The translations under genes were made by a program, and so were the position numbers. DNA of 64,000 nt from NCBI RefSeq assembly GCF_009827395.1, contig NZ_WTYX01000001.1:274001-338000 (forward strand). Direction: 5' to 3'. Source of the DNA: Pontixanthobacter aquaemixtae. GTDB lineage: Bacteria > Pseudomonadota > Alphaproteobacteria > Sphingomonadales > Sphingomonadaceae. The notes beneath the pieces were generated by a model. That model was not told the DNA's origin, made no database searches, and saw only the letters and a list, made by a program, of their open reading frames with translations. This document shows, piece after piece, positions 10,128-39,561 of this stretch; the stretch's first letter is position 1, and every line of letters begins with the position of its first letter.

Positions 10128-10330
10128 ACTTTGACCAACAGGCGCGGGATAATGATTGTTTCGGCAGCGCCAATGGCAATCAGGACATATCCGACAAATT
10201 GCGGCCACTCGATCCTGCCGGCCAAGATCAGAGAGCCGACAACAATCATCGCCAATCCGATCAGGCGAGTAAAGCTGATAAACAGCAGCCGGTTGCGCGC
10301 CGTGGTGACGTCATCGGCAGGGACGGTCAT
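10106..10330 (-). CDS. Small two-helix membrane protein
   Basis: This 74-aa protein has two hydrophobic segments (about residues 17-36 and 42-60) and a basic end. The start ATG overlaps the stop of the HAD gene by the ATGA arrangement, and its 3' end overlaps the atp12-like gene by 22 bases. The position next to an F1 assembly factor invites an F-ATPase-related role, but nothing in the sequence shows one. Conserved hypothetical proteins of this size are known at this position in related genomes, to my recollection. Confidence 0.75.
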   Translation of the reverse strand: MTVPADDVTTARNRLLFISFTRLIGLAMIVVGSLILAGRIEWPQFVGYVLIAIGAAETIIIPRLLVKVWRSGGE

Positions 10331-10980
10331 AGCAGCAAATCTCCGATAGCTTGCGGGGTGCTTGCGATGGCGCTTGCGCCTTCCGCGATCAGCTCGTCCG
10401 GCGTGTGATAGCCCCAATCGACCCCGATAGCGCGGACATTGGCGGCCCCGGCCATGGCGATGTCAAAAGTCGTATCGCCAATCATTGCGGTGTTTTCCGG
10501 CTCTGCCCCGGCATCCGCCATCGCGGCTTCGAGCATGGCCGGATGCGGCTTTGACGGGTGCCGATCCGCAGTCTGGAGCGAGACGAAATGTTCGCTCAAT
10601 CCGTGCATGGCGAGGCAGGAATAGAGCCCTCTGTCCGATTTTCCTGTGGCCACTGCCAACTGCCAACCGGTATCGCGCAGCCGGTCTAGCAGAGCTGAGA
10701 TGCCGTCAAAAAGCGGTTCCTGGATGCGGCCTTGCAGCCTGCTGGTGCGGAACGCTTCCTTATAAGCTTCAACCGCGTGAATGCGCTGGTCGTCGCTCGC
10801 ATCGGGGGCGAGGTGGCGCAGCGCCTGCGGCAGGCTGAGCCCGACAATCCGGCGGATCTGGTGCCGGTCAGGCGCGGGCAGGCCGGCTGCGGCGAAGGCA
10901 GTTTCCATCGCTTCGCAAATGCTCGCCTGACCATCGACCAGCGTGCCATCGCAATCGAACACGGCTAGCTTGACCGTCAT
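10327..10980 (-). CDS. HAD-family hydrolase (phosphoglycolate phosphatase-like)
   Basis: The 217-aa HAD phosphatase has motif I FDCDGTLVDG (nucleophile Asp in DxDGT), motif II around VATGKS, a conserved Lys in SKPHPAML (motif III) and motif IV IGDTTFDIAMA. The cap domain is the small helical C1 type, as in Gph. The substrate cannot be read from the sequence; phosphoglycolate or another small phosphomonoester is likely. It overlaps both neighbours by four bases in the minus-strand operon. Confidence 0.85.
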   Translation of the reverse strand: MTVKLAVFDCDGTLVDGQASICEAMETAFAAAGLPAPDRHQIRRIVGLSLPQALRHLAPDASDDQRIHAVEAYKEAFRTSRLQGRIQEPLFDGISALLDRLRDTGWQLAVATGKSDRGLYSCLAMHGLSEHFVSLQTADRHPSKPHPAMLEAAMADAGAEPENTAMIGDTTFDIAMAGAANVRAIGVDWGYHTPDELIAEGASAIASTPQAIGDLLL

Positions 10981-11576
10981 GGCACCAATGTCCGCATCAA
11001 ATGGGCAAGCGCGCTTGAGCCGGCTTCATCCAGACCACTGGCAATCCGCTCCCGGTCCTCAGACGATTTCTTTTGCGACATTTTCAGCGTCGGGCGCCAT
11101 GCCAGAATTTCCATTTCGAAACCGGCAATGCCCTTGAACAGGCTTTGCCAGACAGAATCGGGCGTTTCCTGCGCGGACCATTGCTCGCCGCCAATGCGCG
11201 TCTCGTGCTTTTCGATGAAGGAATGGAGCAAGGCTTCCAGCCCTTCATCATTCATGCGCCGGATTCTGCCTTCCAGCTCTACCGAAATATAATCCCATGT
11301 GGGCACCGTGCCGCGTTCTTCATACCAGCGCGGGCTGATATAGGCATCGGGTCCGTTGACGACGATCAGGCCGTTGGTGCCATCGAGCGTCTTGGTCAGC
11401 GCATTGCCGCGCGCCAGATGAAATTGCACTGCGCCATCGCCGGTCGACAGCAGCGGAGTGTGCGCCACGCGCGGGCCATCGGGCGTTTGGGCAAAGACCA
11501 TGCCGAAGCCGATCTGGTCGATCAGCGTTTCCAGCAAGGCGCGGTCTTCGCTGCGAAAAGTGGGGTTGGGATGCAT
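10977..11576 (-). CDS. PaiB-like FMN-binding protein
   Basis: The 199-aa protein matches the PaiB/FMN-binding split-barrel family, named after the Bacillus regulator of sporulation and protease genes. Features are MHPNPTFRSED at the N-terminus, a RVAHTPLL segment and AYISPRWYEERGTVPTW near the middle. Its regulatory role in Gram-negatives is unproven; related split-barrel proteins bind FMN or heme. It is coupled to the pseudouridine synthase gene upstream (TGATG) and to the HAD gene downstream (ATGA). Confidence 0.8.
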   Translation of the reverse strand: MHPNPTFRSEDRALLETLIDQIGFGMVFAQTPDGPRVAHTPLLSTGDGAVQFHLARGNALTKTLDGTNGLIVVNGPDAYISPRWYEERGTVPTWDYISVELEGRIRRMNDEGLEALLHSFIEKHETRIGGEQWSAQETPDSVWQSLFKGIAGFEMEILAWRPTLKMSQKKSSEDRERIASGLDEAGSSALAHLMRTLVP

Positions 11577-12796
11577 CAGCGCCTGCCCCTCTTATTGGGC
11601 TTGCCACCTTTGGGCGGCGGGCCGCCTTTGGCGAATTTTGCTTTGGATTTCTTGCCCAGCTTGCGTTTGCCGGTGCCGCGGCTCTGCCGTTCCTCGCGCT
11701 GGTCCTTGCGGATTTTCTTCGAATGCTGCTTCGCGACTTTCTTCTTCAGCGCCTTGCCCATCGGCTCGCGATCCGCTTCGGGCGCGGCGTCGCTGTCATT
11801 CTCGTCAAAGCCGAGCTGTTCCATGCTTTGCGCGAAATGTTCGGGCAGGCTGGCGGTGGCATCCAGAGGCGCGCCGCCGGGGTGCTCGATAATCAGGCGC
11901 CGCGCGTGCAGATGCATCTTGCGGCTGATGCTGCCGGTGAGAAACGCGTCAGGCCCGCCATATTTGCCGTCGCCGACAATCGGGTGGCCGATCGCCGCCA
12001 TGTGGACTCGCAATTGGTGCGTGCGGCCGGTGAAAGGCTGCAGTTCGACCCAGGCCGCACGATTGCCCGCGCGATCGACCACGCGGTACCGTGTCTTCGC
12101 GGTTTGCCCGCTTTGCTCGTCGACATGCATTTTCTCGCCGCCGGTGCCGGGCTGTTTGGAAAGCTTCGCGTCGATTATGCCGTCTTGCACTTCGGGTACG
12201 CCAACCACCAGCGCCCAATAGACTTTCTTCGCATCGCGGCCCGAGAACCGTTTGGAGAAAAACGCCGCGCTGCCCGGTGTCCGCGCGGTCAGCAAAACGC
12301 CGCTGGTGTCCTTGTCGAGCCGGTGTACCAGCCGCGGGCGCGGATCGTCGGGCCCGGCAAAAGCATCGAGCAAGCGGTCAACATGATCGCGCGTGCCGGT
12401 GCCGCCCTGTGTCGCCAGGCCGGGCGGCTTGTTGAGAACAATCGCCGCCTTGTCCTGCGTGATCAGCATTGCTTCGGCGCGGTCGATATCCTCGTCAGAC
12501 AGCTCTTCGCGTTTTCGCGGCCCGCGCTTCTGGCTCTCGCCCCCGGGCGGTACACGCAGAACTTGCCCCGCTTGCAGCCGCGTGTCGGGTTTGACGCGGC
12601 CACCATCGACCCGAACCTGCCCGGTGCGCGCCCAGCGGCTGACCGTTGCGAAACCGATTTGCGGGAGATTGCGCTTGAACCAGCGATCAAGGCGAATGTC
12701 GTTATCGTCCTGCCCGATCGTGTACTGCCGGACATTGGCAGAGGATTTTTCCGCATCCCACGGATTGGCCGATGATCCGGCTTCCTTGTCACTCAT
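11576..12796 (-). CDS. RluA-family 23S rRNA pseudouridine synthase (RluC/RluD-like)
   Basis: The 406-aa protein contains an S4 RNA-binding domain (about residues 28-85) and the RluA catalytic domain with the motif HRLDKDTSGVLL, whose Asp is the nucleophile. A second signature, GRTHQLRVHMA, follows. A Lys/Arg-rich tail of about 60 residues is extra compared with E. coli RluC and may bind rRNA. The start at 12796 overlaps the crcB stop by ATGA. The exact 23S rRNA target cannot be told from sequence. Confidence 0.92.
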   Translation of the reverse strand: MSDKEAGSSANPWDAEKSSANVRQYTIGQDDNDIRLDRWFKRNLPQIGFATVSRWARTGQVRVDGGRVKPDTRLQAGQVLRVPPGGESQKRGPRKREELSDEDIDRAEAMLITQDKAAIVLNKPPGLATQGGTGTRDHVDRLLDAFAGPDDPRPRLVHRLDKDTSGVLLTARTPGSAAFFSKRFSGRDAKKVYWALVVGVPEVQDGIIDAKLSKQPGTGGEKMHVDEQSGQTAKTRYRVVDRAGNRAAWVELQPFTGRTHQLRVHMAAIGHPIVGDGKYGGPDAFLTGSISRKMHLHARRLIIEHPGGAPLDATASLPEHFAQSMEQLGFDENDSDAAPEADREPMGKALKKKVAKQHSKKIRKDQREERQSRGTGKRKLGKKSKAKFAKGGPPPKGGKPNKRGRR

Positions 12797-29754: not shown

Positions 29755-32334
29755 ATGAACCTGGAAAAATTCACCGACCGCGCCAAAGGATTTTTGCAAT
29801 CTGCTCAGACGGTTGCGATCCGCAACAGCCATCAGCGCATATCGCCCACGCATCTACTCAAGGCTCTGCTGGAAGATGATCAAGGCATGGCAGCGGGCCT
29901 GATCCAGCGCGCCGGCGGTCAGGTGGCGACAGCGCAGGACATGGTCGATGAAGCGCTCGCCAAGATTCCTGCTGTTTCGGGTGGCGGCGCGCAGCAAACG
30001 CCGGGCCTCGACAATGATGCGGTTCGGGTTCTCGATTCTGCTGAAACTATCGCGGAAAAGGCGGGCGATTCCTACGTCACCGTTGAAAGGCTGCTGGTGG
30101 CTTTGGCGCTCGCATCGACCACGCCTGCGGGGCAGATCCTGAAGGAAGCCAATGTCGATCCCAAAGCACTCAACGAAGCGATTGTGGAACTGACCGGCGG
30201 CCGCGCGGCAACCACCGCCAGCGCCGAAGACGCTTATGACGCGATGAAGAAATATGCCCGCGATCTGACGCAGGCAGCCAAGGACGGCAAACTTGATCCG
30301 GTTATCGGGCGCGACGAGGAAATCCGCCGCACAGTGCAAATTCTTGCGCGGCGGACGAAGAACAATCCCGCGCTGATTGGTGAACCCGGCACGGGTAAAA
30401 CCGCGATTGCCGAAGGCCTCGCGCTGCGTATTGCCAATGGCGATGTCCCCGACAGCCTTAAAGGGCGCACGTTGATGTCGCTCGATATGGGCGCGCTGAT
30501 TGCCGGCGCGAAGTATCGCGGCGAATTTGAAGAGCGGTTGAAAGCGGTGCTCGATGAAGTGAAGGGTGCCGATGGCCAGATCATCCTGTTTATCGACGAG
30601 ATGCACACGCTGATCGGGGCAGGGGCGAGCGAGGGCAGCATGGATGCTTCCAATCTGCTCAAGCCTGCTTTGTCGCGCGGTGAACTGCATTGCATCGGCG
30701 CGACCACGCTCGATGAATATCAGAAATATGTCGAGAAAGACCCAGCGCTGCAGCGGCGTTTCCAGTCGGTCTATATCGATGAGCCGACCGTCGAAGACAC
30801 GATTTCGATCCTGCGCGGGTTGAAAGAGAAATACGAACTGCATCACGGCGTCCGGATTACCGATGGTGCGCTGGTGGCCGCCGCGACGCTTTCCAATCGT
30901 TACATCCAGAACCGTTTCCTGCCCGACAAAGCCATCGATTTGATGGACGAAGCGGCGAGCCGCATCCGGATGGAAGTGGAAAGCAAGCCGGAAGAAATCG
31001 AAGGGTTGGACCGCCGGATTATCCAACTGAAGATCGAAGAATCCGCGCTTTCCAAAGAAACCGATAAGGCAGCAAAGGATCGTCTCAAAACGCTTCGCGA
31101 AGAGCTTGCCAATCTGGAGCAGCAATCGTCCGAACTGACCACGCGCTGGCAGAACGAGCGCGACAAGATCCAGGCCGAAAGCAAGCTGAAGGAAGATCTC
31201 GATCACGCGCGGCTGGAACTGGAACAGGCGCAGCGCGAAGGCGATCTCGCGAAAGCAGGCGAATTGTCTTACGGGAAAATTCCCGAGCTTGAAAAAGCGA
31301 TCGAGGCAGCGTCCGACAACAATGAGAACGCGTTGCTGCGCGAAGAAGTCACCGAAGATGATATCGCCGGTGTGGTGAGCCGTGCGACCGGCATTCCGAT
31401 TGATCGGATGATGGAAGGCGAGCGCAAGAAGCTTCTCCAGATGGAGGAAATGCTCAGCAAACGCGTGATCGGGCAGCGGCAGCCGATCGAGGCTGTGTCC
31501 AAGGCAGTACGCCGCGCGCGCGCCGGATTGCAGGACCCGAACCGGCCGCTCGGTTCATTCCTGTTCCTCGGCCCCACCGGCGTCGGCAAAACAGAGCTGA
31601 CCAAAGCGCTGGCCGAATTTATGTTCGACGATGACGATGCGATGGTTCGTATCGATATGTCTGAATTTATGGAGAAACACGCGGTTGCGCGGTTGATCGG
31701 CGCGCCTCCCGGCTATGTCGGCTATGACGAGGGCGGGGTGCTGACCGAAGCGGTCCGCCGCCGGCCCTATCAGGTGATCCTGTTTGACGAGGTTGAAAAA
31801 GCGCATAGCGACGTGTTCAACGTGCTGCTGCAAGTGCTCGACGATGGCCGCCTGACCGACGGGCAGGGCAGAGTGGTCGATTTCTCGAACACGCTGATTA
31901 TCCTGACGTCGAACCTCGGCAGCCAGTATCTCGCCAATATGGAGGACGACCAGAAGGTCGCCGATGTCGAGCCGCAAGTGATGGATGTGGTGCGCGGGCA
32001 TTTCCGCCCCGAATTCCTCAACCGGCTGGACGAGATCATCCTGTTCCACCGCCTGGCGATGGAACACATGGCTCCGATTGTCGAAATTCAGATCAAACGC
32101 GTGCAAAAGCTGCTGAAAGACCGCAAGATCGAACTCGATCTGACCGAAGCGGCGCTGCGCTGGCTCGGGCGCGTGGGCTATGATCCGGTTTACGGCGCGC
32201 GACCGCTCAAACGTGCGGTTCAACGTTACCTACAGGATCCGCTGGCAGACATGATTTTGCGCGGCGATGTGCCCGATGGTGCGACCCTGAAAATCGACGA
32301 GGGCGACGGCGAGTTGAAAATGGAGGTCGCGTAA
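29755..32334 (+). CDS. clpB: ATP-dependent disaggregase ClpB
   Basis: The 859-aa Hsp100 chaperone rescues aggregated proteins with DnaK/DnaJ. An N-domain (residues 1-150) precedes AAA domain 1 (Walker [10 protein letters not shown]), the ClpB-specific coiled-coil middle domain (about residues 405-525) and AAA domain 2 (Walker [10 protein letters not shown]). The start at 29755 has AGGACCAAAGG as ribosome site. The stop lies five bases from the convergent gene's stop, with no obvious terminator between them. Confidence 0.98.
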
Positions 32335-32339
32335 GCGAT

Positions 32340-32906
32340 TCAGCGTATCCGGCGGCCTTTCACGCCGATCTGCCCGTTGATCCTGATGAAGTAGCTGCCC
32401 AAGGATGCTTCCTTGAAGACGACTTTATCGCCCGGCTTCGCATTCATTGTCCGCTGTTTCGCACCGGGTATACGCCACACCGCATCGCCATCCTCGATGG
32501 TGATGAGAACGGTGTTGCGGCCGGAAATCGCGACACTGGTAATGGTCGATTCAAACAGTTCGTCGTCATCGTCACCGCCGAAAATGCCTAGATCGGGCAG
32601 CGAAAAGCCAAACAGGCTCCGGCGGGTCTTCTTTGCTTGCTCCCGGTCGACGATCTGGACCTCGCCCTCGTCGCTGGCTTCCACCACTTTTCCGACTGCC
32701 GCGTCATAGCAGGCAAGCCGCTCGGCTGCTTCGCTGATTGATTGGCATGCTTTCAAGCCGGCAATGTAGGCATCATCCTGTTTTTCATCGCTTTCCTGAG
32801 CAAAAACCGGGGTGGTTCCGAATGCCAATAGCGCGGCTGCGAAAGCTGCGGTGGTGGCTGCCTTGGGCAGCAAATTTGAAGCTTCTGGTGTGCCGTGGCC
32901 TGACAT
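32340..32906 (-). CDS. Exported hypothetical protein with C-x(n)-C pair
   Basis: The 188-aa protein has a hydrophobic signal (AAALLAFGTTPVFAQ, cleavage near residue 36). A helical region with CQSISEAAERLACYDAAVG follows, then an acidic segment (GGDDDDELFE) and a beta-rich C-terminal half that is basic at the end. The C...LACYD pattern matches exported sphingomonad proteins of unknown function. Divergent from the TonB receptor gene. Confidence 0.7.
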   Translation of the reverse strand: MSGHGTPEASNLLPKAATTAAFAAALLAFGTTPVFAQESDEKQDDAYIAGLKACQSISEAAERLACYDAAVGKVVEASDEGEVQIVDREQAKKTRRSLFGFSLPDLGIFGGDDDDELFESTITSVAISGRNTVLITIEDGDAVWRIPGAKQRTMNAKPGDKVVFKEASLGSYFIRINGQIGVKGRRIR

Positions 32907-33152: not shown

Positions 33153-36098
33153 ATGTCCAACCGTTTTAACAAAGCCGCACTATTGGCGGGTACGATTATG
33201 GCAGGCGCCATGGTCGCTACTCCGGCATATGCACAAGAGAATACCGATGGCGCTGACGCCGATGATGGTTTCATCGTCGTTACCGGTTCGCGTATTCAAC
33301 GTCGCAATGTTGATAGCCCTGCTCCTGTAGCAGTCGTCGACAGCGAAGAATTTGAACTTTCGGGTACAGTCAACGTTGAGAACGTGGTCAACACGCTTCC
33401 TCAAGTTGTTCCTGGCACCACATCGTTCTCGAACAACCCAGGTAACGGTACCGCTACACTGAACCTTCGTGGTCTCGGTTCGCAGCGTACTCTGGTTCTG
33501 GTTAACGGCCGTCGCTGGATGTCTTACGACACCGCGCAAATCGTCGACTTGAACACCATCCCATCGTTCCTGCTCGACTCGGTTGACGTTGTGACCGGTG
33601 GTGCTTCGGCTGTTTACGGTTCGGACGCTCTGGCTGGCGTTGTTAACTTCCGTCTGAAAGACGTTGATGGCATCGAAATGGGCGGCCAGTACTCGATCAC
33701 CGAACGTGGCGACGCAGCTCGTTACGAAGTTCACGGTGCAATCGGTACTTCGTTCGACGATGGCCGCGGTAGCGCGACTGTCTACGCCGAATACTACAAC
33801 CGTGACTCGCTGTTCCAAGGCGACCGTGCGTTCTCGAACTTCGCACTCGGTGGTGAAACCGATGGCGATCAGCAGTACCAGTTCGGTTCTTCGACTCTGC
33901 CAAACGGCGTTCTGCGTTATCTTGGTGGTGCGAACGGCAACACCGGCCTTCCAGCCGGCACCGAATTCGGCCCTGCAGGCGCTAGCGGCTTCGGCACAGG
34001 CGTAGTTTTCGACAACACACCTGGTGATTTCCGCCAGCGTGCAGGCGACCTGTACAACTATGCACCGGTTAACTACCTGCAGCTCCCGCAAGAGCGGTAT
34101 CTGATGGGCGGTTACGCTGATTACGAATTCAGCGACGGTCACGAGTTCTACACCGAAGTGTCGTTTGTGAATAACCGCGTTGCACAAGAACTTGCTGCTA
34201 CTCCGGTGACCGGCAACTTCAACATCGATCTGGCAACTCAGCTCCAGTTTCTTGTTCCTAGCGACCAGCAGCAGCTGCTCGACATCGACGCGGCTGAAAC
34301 CGCTCAGAACGCGCTTGACGGCGTGGCTGACGATCCAGGCGTAGTTAACTTCTTCGTACAACGTCGTACGATCGAAGCTAGCCGTCGTAACAGCCTTGAT
34401 GAGCGTAGCGCATTCCGCGTGCTCGGTGGTGTTCGTGGTGCGATCAACGACAATCTGAACTACGACGCGTACTACATGTTCGCCCGTACTCGGAACTCGA
34501 ACATCCAAGCTGGTAACATCTCGCGTTCGGCATTCCAGGCCGGCCTCGACGGTACTGCGACACCGATCAACATCTTCGGTCTGAACACGCTGACTCCAGC
34601 GATGTTCCAGCAAATTGCAATCCAGGCGCAGAACAGCGACATCTCCAGCATGCAAGTTGCTTCGGCTTCGATCAACGGTTTCCTCGGAAACCTTGGTATG
34701 GGCGGTGACGATGTTGGTTTCGCTGTAGGTGCTGAATACCGTAAGGTTGCATCGCAGTTCATTCCTGACACTGCACTGTCTTCGGGCGACGTGATCGGCT
34801 TTAACGCTGGTCTGCCGACCGAAGGTTCTTACGACGTACGTGAACTCTTCGCAGAGCTTAACATTCCGATCCTCGGCCCCGATGCTGGTGTTGAGAAATT
34901 GGATGTGACCGCTGCGGCGCGTTACTCTGACTACTCGCTGGACGCTGTTGGCGGTGTTTGGACTTATGCCGGTGGCATCGAGTTCGCTCCAGTCCCAGAC
35001 ATCACGCTCCGTGCTCAGTATCAGCGCGCTGTTCGTGCACCAAACGTTGGTGAACTGTTCGGTGGCCGCGCAATCGGCTTCCCGCCAGCAACCGACCCTT
35101 GTAACCTCGGCACCGGTGCGGCTTTGACTGCAACTTGTGTGGCTTCGGGCGTTCCTGCGAACGAAGTTGGTCAAGGCAACATCCAGCCAAACGGCCAAAT
35201 TCCAGCAACCTTTGGTGGTTTCGCTGGCTTGGGCGAAGAAACTTCGGACAGCTACACCTTCGGTGTTGTTCTTGAGCCGCAGTTTGTCCCTGGTCTCGTG
35301 ATCACGGCTGACTACTTCAATATCTCGATCGATGACTCGATCTCGGTATTTGGTGGCGGTCTGAACAATGCTCTGGATCTGTGCTTCAACCAGGTTCAGG
35401 ACATTAACGATCCGATCTGTGCTCCGTTTGCACCAGGCACCGGCGCTCGTTCGCCAGGTGGTGCGATCACCACTGCGAACAACCCGCTTATTCTGGCCGC
35501 AAACATTGCGAACCAGGAAGTTTCGGGCATCGACCTTCAGGTCAACTACGGAACAACCATTCCGTTCTCGCTCCTGACTGACAGCGGTGAGCAGCAGCTT
35601 AACCTTTCGTTCCTGGGTACTTGGACTGAAAAGTCCAACTTCACTCCGGTGCAAGGTTTTGCGACTGTCAACGAATGCGCTGGTCGTTTCGGCACAACCT
35701 GCGGTGAGCCAACTCCGAAGTACAAGTGGACCAGCCGTGCGACATTCGTCGACGGTCCTCTGACCACTTCGTTCCGCTGGCGTCACCTGAGCGGTGTTCG
35801 TGATGACAACGATGGTGTTGATTACAGCCAGTTCAACGGCGTTGAGCGTATCAATGCTTACGACCTGCTCGACATCTCGTTCTCGTTCGAAGTGAACGAA
35901 AACCTGACCATCGCGATGGGTGTAGACAACGTGTTCGACACGCTGCCACAAACACCTAGCTTCGATGCAGCGGGTAACGTTACGACCACAAGCAACGGCA
36001 CGCTCCTCGGTGACAACCAAGAGCAAGCCAACACATACCCAAGCACATACAACGTGCTCGGCCGTGACTTCTTCGTATCGGCGAACGTCAAGTTCTAA
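33153..36098 (+). CDS. TonB-dependent outer membrane receptor
   Basis: The 981-aa receptor has a signal peptide (residues 1-27, ending TPAYAQ), a plug domain starting FIVVTGSRIQRRNVDSPAP with GLGSQRTLVLVNGRRW, and a beta-barrel ending in the C-terminal Phe (SANVKF). It lacks an N-terminal STN signalling domain, so it is a plain importer powered by TonB/ExbBD. Codon use is strongly biased to CGT, GGT, GTT, TCG and AAC, unlike the GC-ending codons of neighbours, which signals very high expression. The ligand is unknown. ATG 33153 was chosen because the signal peptide and ribosome site fit. Confidence 0.93.
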   Translation: MSNRFNKAALLAGTIMAGAMVATPAYAQENTDGADADDGFIVVTGSRIQRRNVDSPAPVAVVDSEEFELSGTVNVENVVNTLPQVVPGTTSFSNNPGNGTATLNLRGLGSQRTLVLVNGRRWMSYDTAQIVDLNTIPSFLLDSVDVVTGGASAVYGSDALAGVVNFRLKDVDGIEMGGQYSITERGDAARYEVHGAIGTSFDDGRGSATVYAEYYNRDSLFQGDRAFSNFALGGETDGDQQYQFGSSTLPNGVLRYLGGANGNTGLPAGTEFGPAGASGFGTGVVFDNTPGDFRQRAGDLYNYAPVNYLQLPQERYLMGGYADYEFSDGHEFYTEVSFVNNRVAQELAATPVTGNFNIDLATQLQFLVPSDQQQLLDIDAAETAQNALDGVADDPGVVNFFVQRRTIEASRRNSLDERSAFRVLGGVRGAINDNLNYDAYYMFARTRNSNIQAGNISRSAFQAGLDGTATPINIFGLNTLTPAMFQQIAIQAQNSDISSMQVASASINGFLGNLGMGGDDVGFAVGAEYRKVASQFIPDTALSSGDVIGFNAGLPTEGSYDVRELFAELNIPILGPDAGVEKLDVTAAARYSDYSLDAVGGVWTYAGGIEFAPVPDITLRAQYQRAVRAPNVGELFGGRAIGFPPATDPCNLGTGAALTATCVASGVPANEVGQGNIQPNGQIPATFGGFAGLGEETSDSYTFGVVLEPQFVPGLVITADYFNISIDDSISVFGGGLNNALDLCFNQVQDINDPICAPFAPGTGARSPGGAITTANNPLILAANIANQEVSGIDLQVNYGTTIPFSLLTDSGEQQLNLSFLGTWTEKSNFTPVQGFATVNECAGRFGTTCGEPTPKYKWTSRATFVDGPLTTSFRWRHLSGVRDDNDGVDYSQFNGVERINAYDLLDISFSFEVNENLTIAMGVDNVFDTLPQTPSFDAAGNVTTTSNGTLLGDNQEQANTYPSTYNVLGRDFFVSANVKF

Positions 36099-36128
36099 GT
36101 TCGAAGAACAGCGAAAGCTAAAAAGAAG

Positions 36129-36158
36129 GGGCGGCGGACTTCGGTCCGCCGCCCTTTT
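36129..36158 (+). terminator. Strong intrinsic terminator after the TonB receptor
   Basis: An 11-bp perfect stem (GGGCGGCGGAC/GTCCGCCGCCC) is closed by a TTCG tetraloop and followed by TTTTCTTT. This is a textbook terminator, fitting a highly transcribed gene. Confidence 0.92.
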
Positions 36159-36212
36159 CTTTGCGCGACTAAGAAGTAGCTGGCGGCGGTAGAACCACCG
36201 CCGGCGGTCCGG

Positions 36213-37127
36213 TCAGGATTTCTTACGCAGCAACCTGAAATCGGCAAATGGCTTGGTCGATACATTGTCGATCAACGCATCGACGCTGACTTGCTCCAGC
36301 CCGCCTACGTCAATCGCTTCGGCAAAGCCCGCAGCATCGGCTGTCTGCTTACACGCCGCCTCAAGCGAATTGATCCGCCCGATCTCGTTAAGAGCATGAT
36401 CGCGGATTGTATCGAGCAGCCGCGAAACATTGTCTGGATGGTCGCGCGTGCTGAGCGCGAGCGTTTGCCGAACCGCTTCGGCAATTTCCCATGCTGCAGA
36501 CCCTTGGCCAAAGCGGGCCGCGCCGGCTGCAGGGGCCTGCATAATCTTGGAGGAAACGGTCTGTAAGCCGCTCGCCCGCAGCTTGAGATTGCCCTTGGCA
36601 ACGGCAACCAGATCATGTTCTTCGATTGCCCACAAAATCTGTTCGCGCCGCGCGACGTTGTGGGCCAGAATCGGCCCGTCAATGCGGTGTGTAATCAGAC
36701 CGATGCTGCCTTCCGGCCGCAGGACGCGCGCAATTTCCGTTGCGGCAGCGCTCAGATCGCCATATTCAAACCCGAATTGGCTGGTCACTGCGTCGAATTT
36801 GTCGTCGGGGAAGGGCAGTTCTTCCATCCTCACGCCGCCGCGGACTTTCGTTCCTTTGGGCGGGGCTGGTAATTCGGGCGCCATATCGACGCCGACCGGC
36901 TTCAGATCGGGTCGTTTTCCCAAGATCCAGCGCATCACGCGGCCATCGCCGGTGGCTATGTCGAGCAACGCGGCCTTGCGCGGAAGCGATTTTGCAAAGC
37001 CGTGCCAAACCGCGCGCTGCGCCGCATCAATCCCTTGATACTTTGCGGGCAGGCACCCACCATCTTGGCCCGATTGGGTGTTCTGTGCCCAGAAATCGCT
37101 CCAGGCTTTGTCATGTGAGGAGCTCAT
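36213..37127 (-). CDS. Class I SAM-dependent methyltransferase
   Basis: The 304-aa protein has the SAM-binding motif LLDIATGDGRVMRWIL (about residues 54-69), the acidic post-I strand PVGVDMAPE and the FDAVTSQFGFEYG motif of UbiE-like methyltransferases. The acceptor is unknown; the C-terminal 100 residues are helical and not typical of UbiE. Its ATG overlaps the stop of the TPR-oxygenase gene (ATGA). It is the last gene of a three-gene operon whose other products are both 2OG-Fe(II) oxygenases. Confidence 0.85.
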   Translation of the reverse strand: MSSSHDKAWSDFWAQNTQSGQDGGCLPAKYQGIDAAQRAVWHGFAKSLPRKAALLDIATGDGRVMRWILGKRPDLKPVGVDMAPELPAPPKGTKVRGGVRMEELPFPDDKFDAVTSQFGFEYGDLSAAATEIARVLRPEGSIGLITHRIDGPILAHNVARREQILWAIEEHDLVAVAKGNLKLRASGLQTVSSKIMQAPAAGAARFGQGSAAWEIAEAVRQTLALSTRDHPDNVSRLLDTIRDHALNEIGRINSLEAACKQTADAAGFAEAIDVGGLEQVSVDALIDNVSTKPFADFRLLRKKS

Positions 37128-38821
37128 CGCGGCGTTCCTTGGGTCAGTGTCACATCAAACGCGACTGTCATTCGCTGTCCTTCCGCGAAGGGGCGCGTTC
37201 CGTGATAGAGCGTGCTCGGGAACAGTGCCATATGGACGGGCTTCGGCTCAATTATGCGGATCGGTTCGAGATCGAGCGCGAGATCAGCCGCAGGGCGTCC
37301 AACTTCAAGCCATCCCGCTTTGTCCGTGTCCCCCGGCTTTGGTGCGGGCATTTCGAGGTACAGCGCGGAGGAAACAATCCCTTGCGGATGGATATGAGCC
37401 GTATGAAAGTCACCGCCGCCGCTCAAACGGACCGACCAAGAGCCTGCGAGCGACCAGGCATTGTCGCGGTGGCGCAGGAGCGGATGCGTAGGATCTGCGG
37501 GCGGCAGTTTGCTGCGGTAATCTTCAACACTCGCCGCAATGGCATCGTGCAGTTCGGCAAATTCGGGCTCTGTCCGGTCGAACAGAATTCCCCTCGTTTG
37601 CGATCCGCCGCGCAGCGACTGGCCGAGCGGCAGCGGTGATCCATCGTGCAGCCCGTGCAATAGCGGGATCACTTTCGGCAGGATCCTATCCGCATCGTGC
37701 AGCGGAACAAGGTCAACCAACTTGTCGCCGCCGTGGAGCCAATCGGAGCGTGCATCTCCGATCATTCGCCAGACGACTCCGCGCAAAGCCCAGGCTGAAA
37801 TGCTCCACGGATCCGCTTCAATAATTTGTCCGAGCAAAGTGTCCGCACGGTCAAATTCCCCGCGCCGGATCCGGTGGCGCGCCTCGTGCAGCCAGCGTTC
37901 GGGATCGTCGCGCTCCAGTTTTGCGAATAGCCGTTCGGCGCGATCATTGTCCCCCATTGCCCCCGCATTGATGGCTTCTTGCAATGTGAAATGATTGATA
38001 TGGGGGAATATCGCTTGCGCCCGCGAAGCCAAAGAAGCCGCGCGCTCGTTAAAGTCGAGACCTGCTAGGACCGATATCCATTCGGCAAAGATGTTCGGGT
38101 CCTGCGGGACCGCCTTGGCCGCGTCGCCATAATGCGAGGTGAAATCTTCCTCACCTTCCGCCAGGCGGAGCTGCGCGAGGAAGCGAAGGCCTTCGGTCCA
38201 ACCGGGCGCCTGCTTGACCAGTGCTTCGGCAATTTCCCTCGCGCCCGATTGATTGCCCTGTACATCAAGCGCCTGCGCCTTGCCGAGCCACAAATCCGCA
38301 TCGCCATTGTTGAGATTCAGCGCCCGGTCAAAGCGTTGCAGCGCGGTTTCTTCGCCGCGATCGAGCGCTACACGCGCCCGCCCGTGGAGCGCTTTGATCC
38401 GCCCCGGTTCCAGCGATATCGCAAGATCGTACCAGAATGCCGCCTCTTTGGGATTGCCCAGTCCGCGCTCTGCGGTTCCGCGTGTCGAACAATAAACTGC
38501 AGATGTCCGGCCCTGTTCGGCAAAGCGGTCAAGTTCTGCAATGGCATCCCTGTGCCGGTTTGCCGCCGACAGCGCTATCGCCCCGTTGATTGCGAATTCC
38601 ATATTGGCCGGCTGAAGTTCGGCCGCTTGCGCGAAATGTTCGACTGCCTCTGCGGCATCGCCCAGCCGAAGGAGCATTCCCCCCGCGCTGTTCCACAGCG
38701 GGGCCTCTTGCGGGTATTGGACCAGAGCGTCGCGCATCGCCTGTCGTGCCGCCTCGGTATTTCCGCTGCGTTCAGCGGATACTGCGCGATCACGCCATTG
38801 TTGCGGCGTCAGTTTGTTCAC
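37124..38821 (-). CDS. TPR protein with C-terminal 2OG-Fe(II) oxygenase domain
   Basis: The 565-aa protein has TPR-like repeats over about residues 5-370. Its C-terminal domain (about 400-560) resembles the putative 2OG-Fe(II) oxygenase family PF13759. Candidate iron ligands are the HTAHIHP histidines (473-478) and His540 in LYHGTRPF, and Arg550 in GQRMTVAFD would bind 2-oxoglutarate. The TPR array suggests a protein or peptide substrate or partner. No signal peptide, so cytoplasmic. It overlaps both neighbours by four bases. Confidence 0.8.
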   Translation of the reverse strand: MNKLTPQQWRDRAVSAERSGNTEAARQAMRDALVQYPQEAPLWNSAGGMLLRLGDAAEAVEHFAQAAELQPANMEFAINGAIALSAANRHRDAIAELDRFAEQGRTSAVYCSTRGTAERGLGNPKEAAFWYDLAISLEPGRIKALHGRARVALDRGEETALQRFDRALNLNNGDADLWLGKAQALDVQGNQSGAREIAEALVKQAPGWTEGLRFLAQLRLAEGEEDFTSHYGDAAKAVPQDPNIFAEWISVLAGLDFNERAASLASRAQAIFPHINHFTLQEAINAGAMGDNDRAERLFAKLERDDPERWLHEARHRIRRGEFDRADTLLGQIIEADPWSISAWALRGVVWRMIGDARSDWLHGGDKLVDLVPLHDADRILPKVIPLLHGLHDGSPLPLGQSLRGGSQTRGILFDRTEPEFAELHDAIAASVEDYRSKLPPADPTHPLLRHRDNAWSLAGSWSVRLSGGGDFHTAHIHPQGIVSSALYLEMPAPKPGDTDKAGWLEVGRPAADLALDLEPIRIIEPKPVHMALFPSTLYHGTRPFAEGQRMTVAFDVTLTQGTPR

Positions 38822-39561
38822 TGATCGCGCAGCCAGCCGGTTATTGCCAACCGTCCCAGCGGCGCGAATGGCGGGACATAGGATACGCCATGTGCCTGCG
38901 GTACGGCGAACAGGTTCAGCGCGTTAAACCGCGGCTTGAACCCTTGGATAATATCGCCATCCTCGTCGAAGAAGTTGAGGTAACCGCCCCAATCTGGCTT
39001 CCAGTCGTCGATTGCGAAGTTCATCACATAGGCCACGCGCCACCCTTCGCCGACATGGCTGTCTGTGTGCTGCGCAAGGAAATGCTGCGGCGCATATAGC
39101 GTGGCCTGGCCGTCGGCTTTGATCAGTTCGTTGATCCCGGTAACTTCGCGGACAAGCTGCAGAAAATCCTCTGCGTTGAGATATTCGAGGATCAAGTCGT
39201 GCGGGCCGCCTTCATTCCATTTTTCCAGATAGGCTTCGACCAGCGAATAATGCGCATAGCGGAAGGCGTAATCCCCTTTCGCCGCCGCTTCGTGAGAGGC
39301 TTGCGCCAATTGCTGTAACTGCTGCTGGCCCTCTTGTGTCTTAAGCGCCTCGGCGCGGACCTGATCTGCCCCGGTCGGATTGTCCGACCCTGCCTTCATC
39401 GCCATGCCCCATTGCGTCTGCTTCGACAGGATCATGCGGATTTCTTCGGCGGTCTCCCGCGTCAGGACATCGCGGATCTGTATCCGCTTGTTGACCGCAA
39501 ACTGCTTGGCCAATGCCTTGCGGTCCAGATCGGGATTAATCTCGAAGAGTTTCTGCGACAT
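38818..39561 (-). CDS. 2OG-Fe(II) oxygenase, prolyl-4-hydroxylase-like
   Basis: The 247-aa dioxygenase has the double-stranded beta-helix signature: HTD (His165, Asp167), distal His224 in HGVSYVPP and Arg237 for 2-oxoglutarate. The N-terminal 130 residues are mostly helical. The arrangement resembles the Tpa1/OGFOD-like prolyl hydroxylase group that modifies proteins. It heads the operon. Its start codon lies two bases after a 9-bp stem-loop that can hide the ribosome site. Confidence 0.85.
   Translation of the reverse strand: MSQKLFEINPDLDRKALAKQFAVNKRIQIRDVLTRETAEEIRMILSKQTQWGMAMKAGSDNPTGADQVRAEALKTQEGQQQLQQLAQASHEAAAKGDYAFRYAHYSLVEAYLEKWNEGGPHDLILEYLNAEDFLQLVREVTGINELIKADGQATLYAPQHFLAQHTDSHVGEGWRVAYVMNFAIDDWKPDWGGYLNFFDEDGDIIQGFKPRFNALNLFAVPQAHGVSYVPPFAPLGRLAITGWLRDQ

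Follow-up and report, generated by a model that had tools for sequence, protein, structure and literature searches.

A conserved oxygenase and methyltransferase cassette beside a TonB-dependent receptor in Pontixanthobacter aquaemixtae, with a candidate hydroxylation site in the receptor plug

A stretch of 64,000 nucleotides from Pontixanthobacter aquaemixtae (contig NZ_WTYX01000001.1, positions 274,001 to 338,000), called the window here, carries three consecutive genes on the minus strand (39561 to 36213) that converge with a plus-strand gene for a TonB-dependent receptor (TBDR). They encode, in order, a prolyl-hydroxylase-like 2-oxoglutarate (2OG)-Fe(II) oxygenase (the hydroxylase), a protein joining a tetratricopeptide repeat (TPR) array to a different 2OG-Fe(II) domain (the TPR-oxygenase) and a methyltransferase; gene order and strands agree with the original prediction, which had been made from the sequence alone. 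This cassette and its receptor form a real, conserved and apparently undescribed unit. The sequences further point to the receptor as the leading candidate substrate of the enzymes and to proline P130, in its plug loop, as the candidate site. We tentatively favour, with slightly more doubt than belief, the reading that the cassette enzymes modify the adjacent receptor before export, that P130 is hydroxylated and that the modified loop sets binding. Receptor editing of this kind is a testable hypothesis with moderate support, and its observed basis is gene linkage, conservation of putative catalytic residues and the joint occurrence of the proline and the hydroxylase gene.

The best 80 of 125 named hydroxylase loci were fetched, and 70 of them, with 6 kb or more of downstream sequence, were evaluated. 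A TBDR lies within 5 kb in 68 of them. Of the four-gene neighbourhood whose conservation across related genomes the original prediction had left to be checked, the hydroxylase, an adjacent TPR-oxygenase and a convergent TBDR within 5 kb are kept in 63 of the 70, and 46 of these 63 also have the methyltransferase. The TPR-oxygenase and TBDR are rearranged in L211 and L214. A TBDR without an adjacent TPR-oxygenase is found in L187, L208 and L210, and an Asp/Asn hydroxylase occupies the TPR-oxygenase place in L187; L180 and L215, the exceptions to the 68, have neither partner. The whole host genome, 2.98 Mb, has 26 matches to PF00593, of which 24 exceed the cut-off, so this neighbourhood of hydroxylase and TBDR goes beyond chance. 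Of 149 genomes of the family, 73 carry the TPR-oxygenase (E <= 1e-20), 43 the hydroxylase (1e-10), 22 the methyltransferase (1e-25) and 68 a similar receptor (1e-100), and cassette order is kept amid different flanking genes in L047, L053, L054 and L056. Around 79 TPR-oxygenase loci of the family, a TBDR lies within 3 kb in 58 and within the fetched stretch in 61. The receptor profile found none in the other 18 (stretch of about +/-9 kb), four of which, L041, L044, L050 and L066, run into a contig end. In L092, also among the 18, a neighbour clusters with TBDRs; the profile thus misses some receptors, and the adjacency counts are minima. The original prediction depended on the operon not being widespread without a TBDR, which holds for the hydroxylase and is weaker for the TPR-oxygenase, given the 18 loci of 79.

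The hydroxylase (38818..39561, minus strand, 247 aa) exceeds the curated Pfam cut-off of 27 for both 2OG-FeII_Oxy_4 (PF13661; 64.2 bits, 1.7e-17) and 2OG-FeII_Oxy_3 (PF13640; 48 bits, 2.5e-12), in keeping with the stand-alone prolyl-hydroxylase-like enzyme that had been predicted. A PDB profile search returned 4nhx (OGFOD1; 7e-11), 4iw3 (2.5e-6) and 3kt1 (TPA1; 1.8e-5). We take 4iw3 to be the Pseudomonas prolyl hydroxylase PPHD. By sequence profile the window hydroxylase is a remote relative of OGFOD1, Tpa1 and 4iw3. With PPHD, which acts on EF-Tu, and OGFOD1/Tpa1, which act on uS12, it shares the 2OG-Fe(II) family, the HxD...H...R motif and homology in the catalytic half; unlike them, the window enzyme is usually found in an operon with a TPR-oxygenase beside a receptor, and the relationship is remote. 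Residues H165, D167, H224 and R237, whose iron and 2OG roles are assigned from known families, are invariant in an alignment of 19 sequences. The iron ligands that had been proposed are thus kept in 19/19 hydroxylases.

The same check gave a mixed answer for the TPR-oxygenase (37124..38821, minus strand, 565 aa, GTG start). Several TPR families and a 2OG-FeII_Oxy_5 domain (PF13759) at residues 461-556 (59.6 bits, 4.3e-16, cut-off 27) match in Pfam, which agrees with the predicted fusion of a TPR array to a different 2OG-Fe(II) domain; the protein falls outside the TIGR02466 subfamily (29.9 bits against an NCBIfam curated cut-off of 62.5). We aligned 40 other PF13759 domains, 29 from long, fused frames and 11 stand-alone. 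H476, H478 and H540 are matched in 40/40 and R550 in 39/40, but in fused and stand-alone domains alike the motif is HxH...H...R and not the canonical HxD/E...H...R facial triad. Most 2OG-Fe(II) relatives have an acidic residue at the third motif position. The second enzyme is a putative oxygenase, by family membership only. It resembles TPR-bearing protein hydroxylases such as collagen prolyl hydroxylases and AspH in having a TPR beside a 2OG oxygenase domain, an arrangement that suits extended polypeptides, and differs from them in its PF13759 domain with HxH...H...R, its bacterial origin, its lack of a visible signal peptide and its linkage to TBDRs. A single-sequence structure prediction, run with no alignment, was poor (mean predicted local distance difference test score, pLDDT, 47.2) and was discarded. 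Elsewhere in the host genome (C1:966457-966789, L254), a stand-alone PF13759 protein has no TBDR in its stretch.

The third product (36213..37127, minus strand, 304 aa) is a class I S-adenosylmethionine methyltransferase, as expected, with a Methyltransf_11 match (PF08241; 44.6 bits, 2.3e-11, cut-off 21.2). It reaches the curated cut-off of none of the NCBIfam models listed (highest score 35.9 bits, cut-off 158.35), and those cut-offs give it no identity as UbiE/BioC or another named methyltransferase. Both gene junctions are 4-bp overlaps, as had been noted; the TPR-oxygenase stop and methyltransferase start share an ATGA (37124-37127, minus strand), but the hydroxylase stop and TPR-oxygenase start share a GTGA (38818-38821, minus strand) and not the second ATGA that had been claimed. 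Between the convergent methyltransferase and receptor genes, a GC-rich hairpin followed by a T-run (36128..36163, no strand assigned) is likely a terminator.

The receptor is a TBDR by plug, beta-barrel and fold, with Pfam matches over the cut-off for the plug (PF07715, 7.1e-23) and the TonB barrel (PF00593, 3.8e-30). Its open reading frame (ORF) opens at GTG 33051. That listed start is probably too early, and ATG 33153, where a signal-peptide-like sequence begins by eye, is likelier, giving 981 aa at 33153..36098 on the plus strand. P130 of the 33051 ORF is P96 from the likely start, and the motif S127-G131 is S93-G97. The receptor model (mean pLDDT 74.7) matches PirA (Z 33.8) and BtuB (Z 33.4), in a comparison whose rows cover known transporter folds only. 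Set against the transporters BtuB, FepA, PfeA and PirA, it has the same fold almost end to end (Z about 30-34), but identity is 17-23% and the window receptor has an SNNPG plug motif tied to the hydroxylase gene. Its effective number of codons, 39.4, is the lowest of ten window genes (41.1-50.5 for the other nine); of the codon use of a very highly expressed gene that had been ascribed to it, the strongest codon bias among these ten stands, and the expression level is what that bias may suggest.

When receptors with and without modifying enzymes were compared, two plug-loop prolines, P121 and P130, were among the residues that stood out. P130 lies in the motif SNNPG (S93-N94-N95-P96-G97; 33429..33443, plus strand), which is invariant in 30 cassette receptors and is a candidate hydroxylation site by its association with the hydroxylase gene. 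We collected 235 receptor sequences. From the first sets, frames shorter than 650 aa or with at most 550 matched residues were dropped, and the 212 sequences from these sets were thinned at 88% identity to 182; a further 23 made 205, of which 140 fall in one clade, picked after the tree had been seen (FastTree support 0.963, midpoint root). In this clade, 75 receptors have both the motif and a hydroxylase in the locus, 58 have neither, 3 have the motif only and 4 the gene only; these tallies are enriched for the cassette because the baits differed (TPR-oxygenase, hydroxylase, PF13759, receptor). The genomes of the three motif-only receptors hold an unlinked hydroxylase (best matches 37, 49 and 52% identical), and two of the four gene-only receptors are second receptors in the double-type loci L170 and L205. 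Hydroxylase loci also hold receptors from outside the clade; these lack the motif and were excluded from the tally. By genome, with loci picked by TPR-oxygenase or receptors, motif and gene occur together in 26 of 71 and are both absent from 42, while 3 have the gene alone and none the motif alone; receptors were covered in part in the three gene-only genomes (G005, G089, G110).

The association was also followed residue by residue, L065, L079 and L088 being scored hydroxylase-positive through their unlinked genomic copy. A weighted phi scan against the hydroxylase placed P130 first (0.91), ahead of F677 (0.86). In a Pagel-type test on the tree, fitted to 60 of 1085 column/residue pairs with gaps scored as residue absent, P130 again came first, with a likelihood ratio of 30.8 and a nominal p of 3.4e-6 (about 0.004 after multiplication by 1085). 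Parsimony placed three of four P130 changes on branches where the hydroxylase also changes, and in the same direction. Two of the three are gains, one basal to an 83-receptor group and the other in L275; the third is a loss in a group of five, among them L108, L274, L256 and L263. In a sequence alignment, receptor SNNPGNG lies opposite STSGQRGNN of the FepA plug, a position that we take to be a ligand-facing apical loop. Exploratory scans against the other enzymes (36 residues fitted each) gave T391 as the best residue for the Asp hydroxylase (18.8), T636 for the sulfotransferase (20.7) and P121 for the TPR-oxygenase. P121 as a TPR-oxygenase site is not claimed, with a phi of 0.42 and few receptors in the set without a TPR-oxygenase.

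Linkage of these enzyme families to TBDRs extends beyond close relatives. PF13759 occurs in 69 of 299 genomes of the phylum, from which we sampled 40 loci: 29 with long frames (>=414 aa, TPR fusion taken from length and TPRs checked in part; the sample omits at least one further long frame, in G322) and 11 with short frames. A TBDR lies in the same stretch in 17/29 long-frame loci and 0/11 stand-alone ones (Fisher 8e-4; kinship is ignored in Fisher values here), and within 1.5 kb in 12/29 and 0/11. In distant loci of the family the partners change to a TPR-Asp/Asn beta-hydroxylase, a TPR sulfotransferase or a tryptophan-halogenase-like enzyme. Enzymes that modify proteins and peptides belong to both the Asp/Asn beta-hydroxylase and the TPR sulfotransferase families. 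L231 and L235, outside the class, each combine within a single stretch two hydroxylases, a receptor, a TPR-oxygenase, a methyltransferase, an Asp/Asn hydroxylase and, on the other strand, a TPR sulfotransferase (domains confirmed for L231). The receptors of both group with the window receptor in the 140-receptor clade, and the other host receptors in the tree fall outside it.

The cassette belongs to only part of the receptor group, because 18 of 20 main receptors in loci picked by receptor similarity are without the tested enzymes within 2.6 kb; in 15 of the 20 loci none of these enzymes occurs anywhere in the stretch. Of ten neighbours of related cassette-less receptors, one is ClpB and nine look hydrolytic or catabolic (an S9 peptidase, two DUF885 proteins, an amidohydrolase, three GH28-type enzymes, a galactarate dehydratase and a phytase-like enzyme), so receptor-pathway linkage is common in the group. 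In L256, L257, L261, L263, L265, L267 and L274 the gene next to such a receptor is of the galactarate dehydratase, GH28-type, S9 peptidase or DUF885 kind; these neighbours hint at pectin-derived and peptide ligands in the receptor group.

Further arrangements were seen around these families. Five Porphyrobacter/Erythrobacter loci (L170, L173, L176, L191 and L205) are of a double type, with a TPR-oxygenase, a TPR sulfotransferase, a hydroxylase and another TPR-oxygenase lined up consecutively. A TBDR stands at both ends of four of them, and L191, on a short contig, has one only; the two receptors of L170 were compared, and only the one beside the second TPR-oxygenase has SNNPG. A tryptophan-halogenase-like protein lies beside another TBDR of the host genome (L133, C1:1806000-1823000, gene 10203-11759), and such proteins also accompany a TPR-oxygenase in L092, L096, L100, L103 and L218; the first four of these share clusters that by eye resemble LacI-type and, in three, ROK-type genes. 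Within the window, clpB lies at 29755-32334 (plus strand) and shares the cassette stretch in many genomes. A 188-aa protein at 32340-32906 (minus strand) has a weak VasI match (19.1 bits, below cut-off), and its cluster is present in 32 TPR-oxygenase loci. In L070, L072, L076 and L087 a methyltransferase-like gene directly follows clpB.

In the mechanism that we tentatively favour, the three cassette enzymes, on which no signal peptide was seen by eye, would be made together and would modify receptor side chains while the chain is unfolded in the cytosol, en route to the Sec pathway. The prolyl-hydroxylase-like enzyme would most likely hydroxylate P130 of the SNNPG plug loop. The TPR array may hold the extended receptor chain while the TPR-oxygenase domain oxidises another residue, and the methyltransferase may add a further group; the modified loop would face the ligand and determine what the receptor binds. 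TBDRs cross the cytosol unfolded ahead of Sec export, and a TPR domain attached to an oxygenase or sulfotransferase is well suited to an extended chain. The receptor is favoured as substrate because of this suitability of TPRs, the lack of visible signal peptides on the enzymes and the proline link. From these observations we infer that the receptor is the substrate, where and when it is modified, what this does to binding, and what the TPR-oxygenase and methyltransferase contribute. Of the stepwise modification of a protein, peptide or imported compound that had been foreseen, a protein or peptide thus seems the most sensible target, and the imported compound becomes a lower-rated rival.

Several observations weigh against the receptor as substrate. 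The two remaining gene-only receptors are true exceptions: L208 has NNSG beside a hydroxylase 56% identical, and L228 has NNG. The runners-up of the Pagel-type test are close (F677 29.4, Q992 24.6, S127 23.7), and five of the 60 fitted residues were prolines. The joint changes of P130 and the hydroxylase are limited to about three branches, and F677 and S127 each change with the hydroxylase on three as well, so what tracks the enzyme is a small residue set headed by P130 and not P130 alone. Because F677, Q992 and S127 score close, the association may reflect a kind of ligand site instead of a substrate site. In the TPR-oxygenase scan P121 reached a ratio of 33.2, above that of P130 against the hydroxylase, and with its low phi it gives no clean presence-absence match with the TPR-oxygenase. 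Model residues 90-97, including SNNPG, have a pLDDT below 50. A zinc carboxypeptidase (PF00246) lies beside a TBDR and TPR-oxygenase in five loci (L107, L109, L111, L112 and L113) and may point to peptides as ligands of the receptors there. Two papers describe remote relatives of the hydroxylase as modifying EF-Tu and uS12 (PMC4543633, PMC4396695).

The same data also fit a receptor site matched to a ligand that the cassette enzymes make or change. The enzymes would then tailor a small ribosomal peptide or metallophore that is encoded elsewhere, secreted and retaken by the receptor, whose tracking residues would bind the hydroxylated ligand. This we regard as unlikely, though the strongest competitor. 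P130, F677, Q992 and F584/N585 lie in the plug loop or mostly outside the strands of the model, as residues of a ligand site would; from the strand pattern the F677, Q992 and F584/N585 stretches look like outer loops, and presumably extracellular ones. The recurrent zinc carboxypeptidase is in line with it, as are two papers: one describes Asp hydroxylation of lasso peptides and lasso clusters with a TBDR and an isopeptidase (PMC9266682), and a Pontixanthobacter/Allopontixanthobacter comparison gives a lasso-peptide B2 protein, sulfotransferases and an aspartyl beta-hydroxylase nearly consecutive cluster numbers (PMC10040529). Like those lasso clusters, and like methanobactin operons with their side-chain-modifying enzymes, the cassette sets modifying enzymes beside a TBDR, but no conserved short ORF was found in its three gaps to stand for the linked precursor gene of methanobactin- or RiPP-type (ribosomally synthesized and post-translationally modified peptide) clusters. 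A search of 80 loci with 29 frames of at least 15 aa from these gaps gave no support for a linked precursor: frames upstream of the receptor and upstream of the hydroxylase match in at most 2 loci, and in the receptor-methyltransferase gap several frames match on both strands, as a terminator would. This result makes the ligand reading less probable, although a precursor gene may lie elsewhere. Among clusters present in at least three loci we noticed no gene for export or peptide maturation, a weak negative with most clusters unannotated.

Breakdown of an imported compound in the cytosol, with the oxygenases and methyltransferase as processing steps, is in line with the catabolic neighbours of cassette-less receptors and is in our view improbable. 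Close cassette loci share no hydrolase that we noticed, and what recurs in them, namely clpB, thiolase, SDR-like and enoyl-CoA-hydratase-like genes (by eye) and others, is found elsewhere too; sulfation and methylation are unusual as degradative steps, and the TPRs suggest macromolecular substrates. Finally, the homology to OGFOD1 and Tpa1, together with clpB in the same locus of many genomes, would suit a hydroxylase that modifies EF-Tu or uS12 as its remote relatives do, with the receptor merely a stable, vertically inherited neighbour near clpB and thiolase. We give this very little credence: gene order survives the different flanks of L047, L053, L054 and L056, enzymes and receptors are linked again outside the class, other loci pair receptors of the same group with an Asp hydroxylase or sulfotransferase, and SNNPG is retained in the three genomes whose hydroxylase is unlinked.

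TBDRs are main uptake proteins of Gram-negative bacteria, and enzymatic hydroxylation of a TBDR side chain is not known to us. The literature searched, which mostly lacked subscription papers, gave no account of hydroxylated TBDRs or of the cassette, a weak negative. Extending receptor editing beyond this cassette is possible and more doubtful than the editing itself: a widespread bacterial system would hydroxylate, and elsewhere beta-hydroxylate, sulfate or methylate, TBDRs before export, each receptor edited by the adjacent enzymes, with hydroxyproline in SNNPG as the first candidate mark and P121, which follows the TPR-oxygenase on the tree, as a possible second, and editing of the plug loop would set ligand specificity or an oxygen- and iron-dependent uptake. 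One peptide, the one carrying SNNPG, makes receptor hydroxylation testable by mass spectrometry. If receptor editing is true, uptake would depend on oxygen, iron and 2OG through modification of the receptor, and the orphan 2OG oxygenases, TPR sulfotransferases and Asp hydroxylases that lie beside receptors would gain a function.

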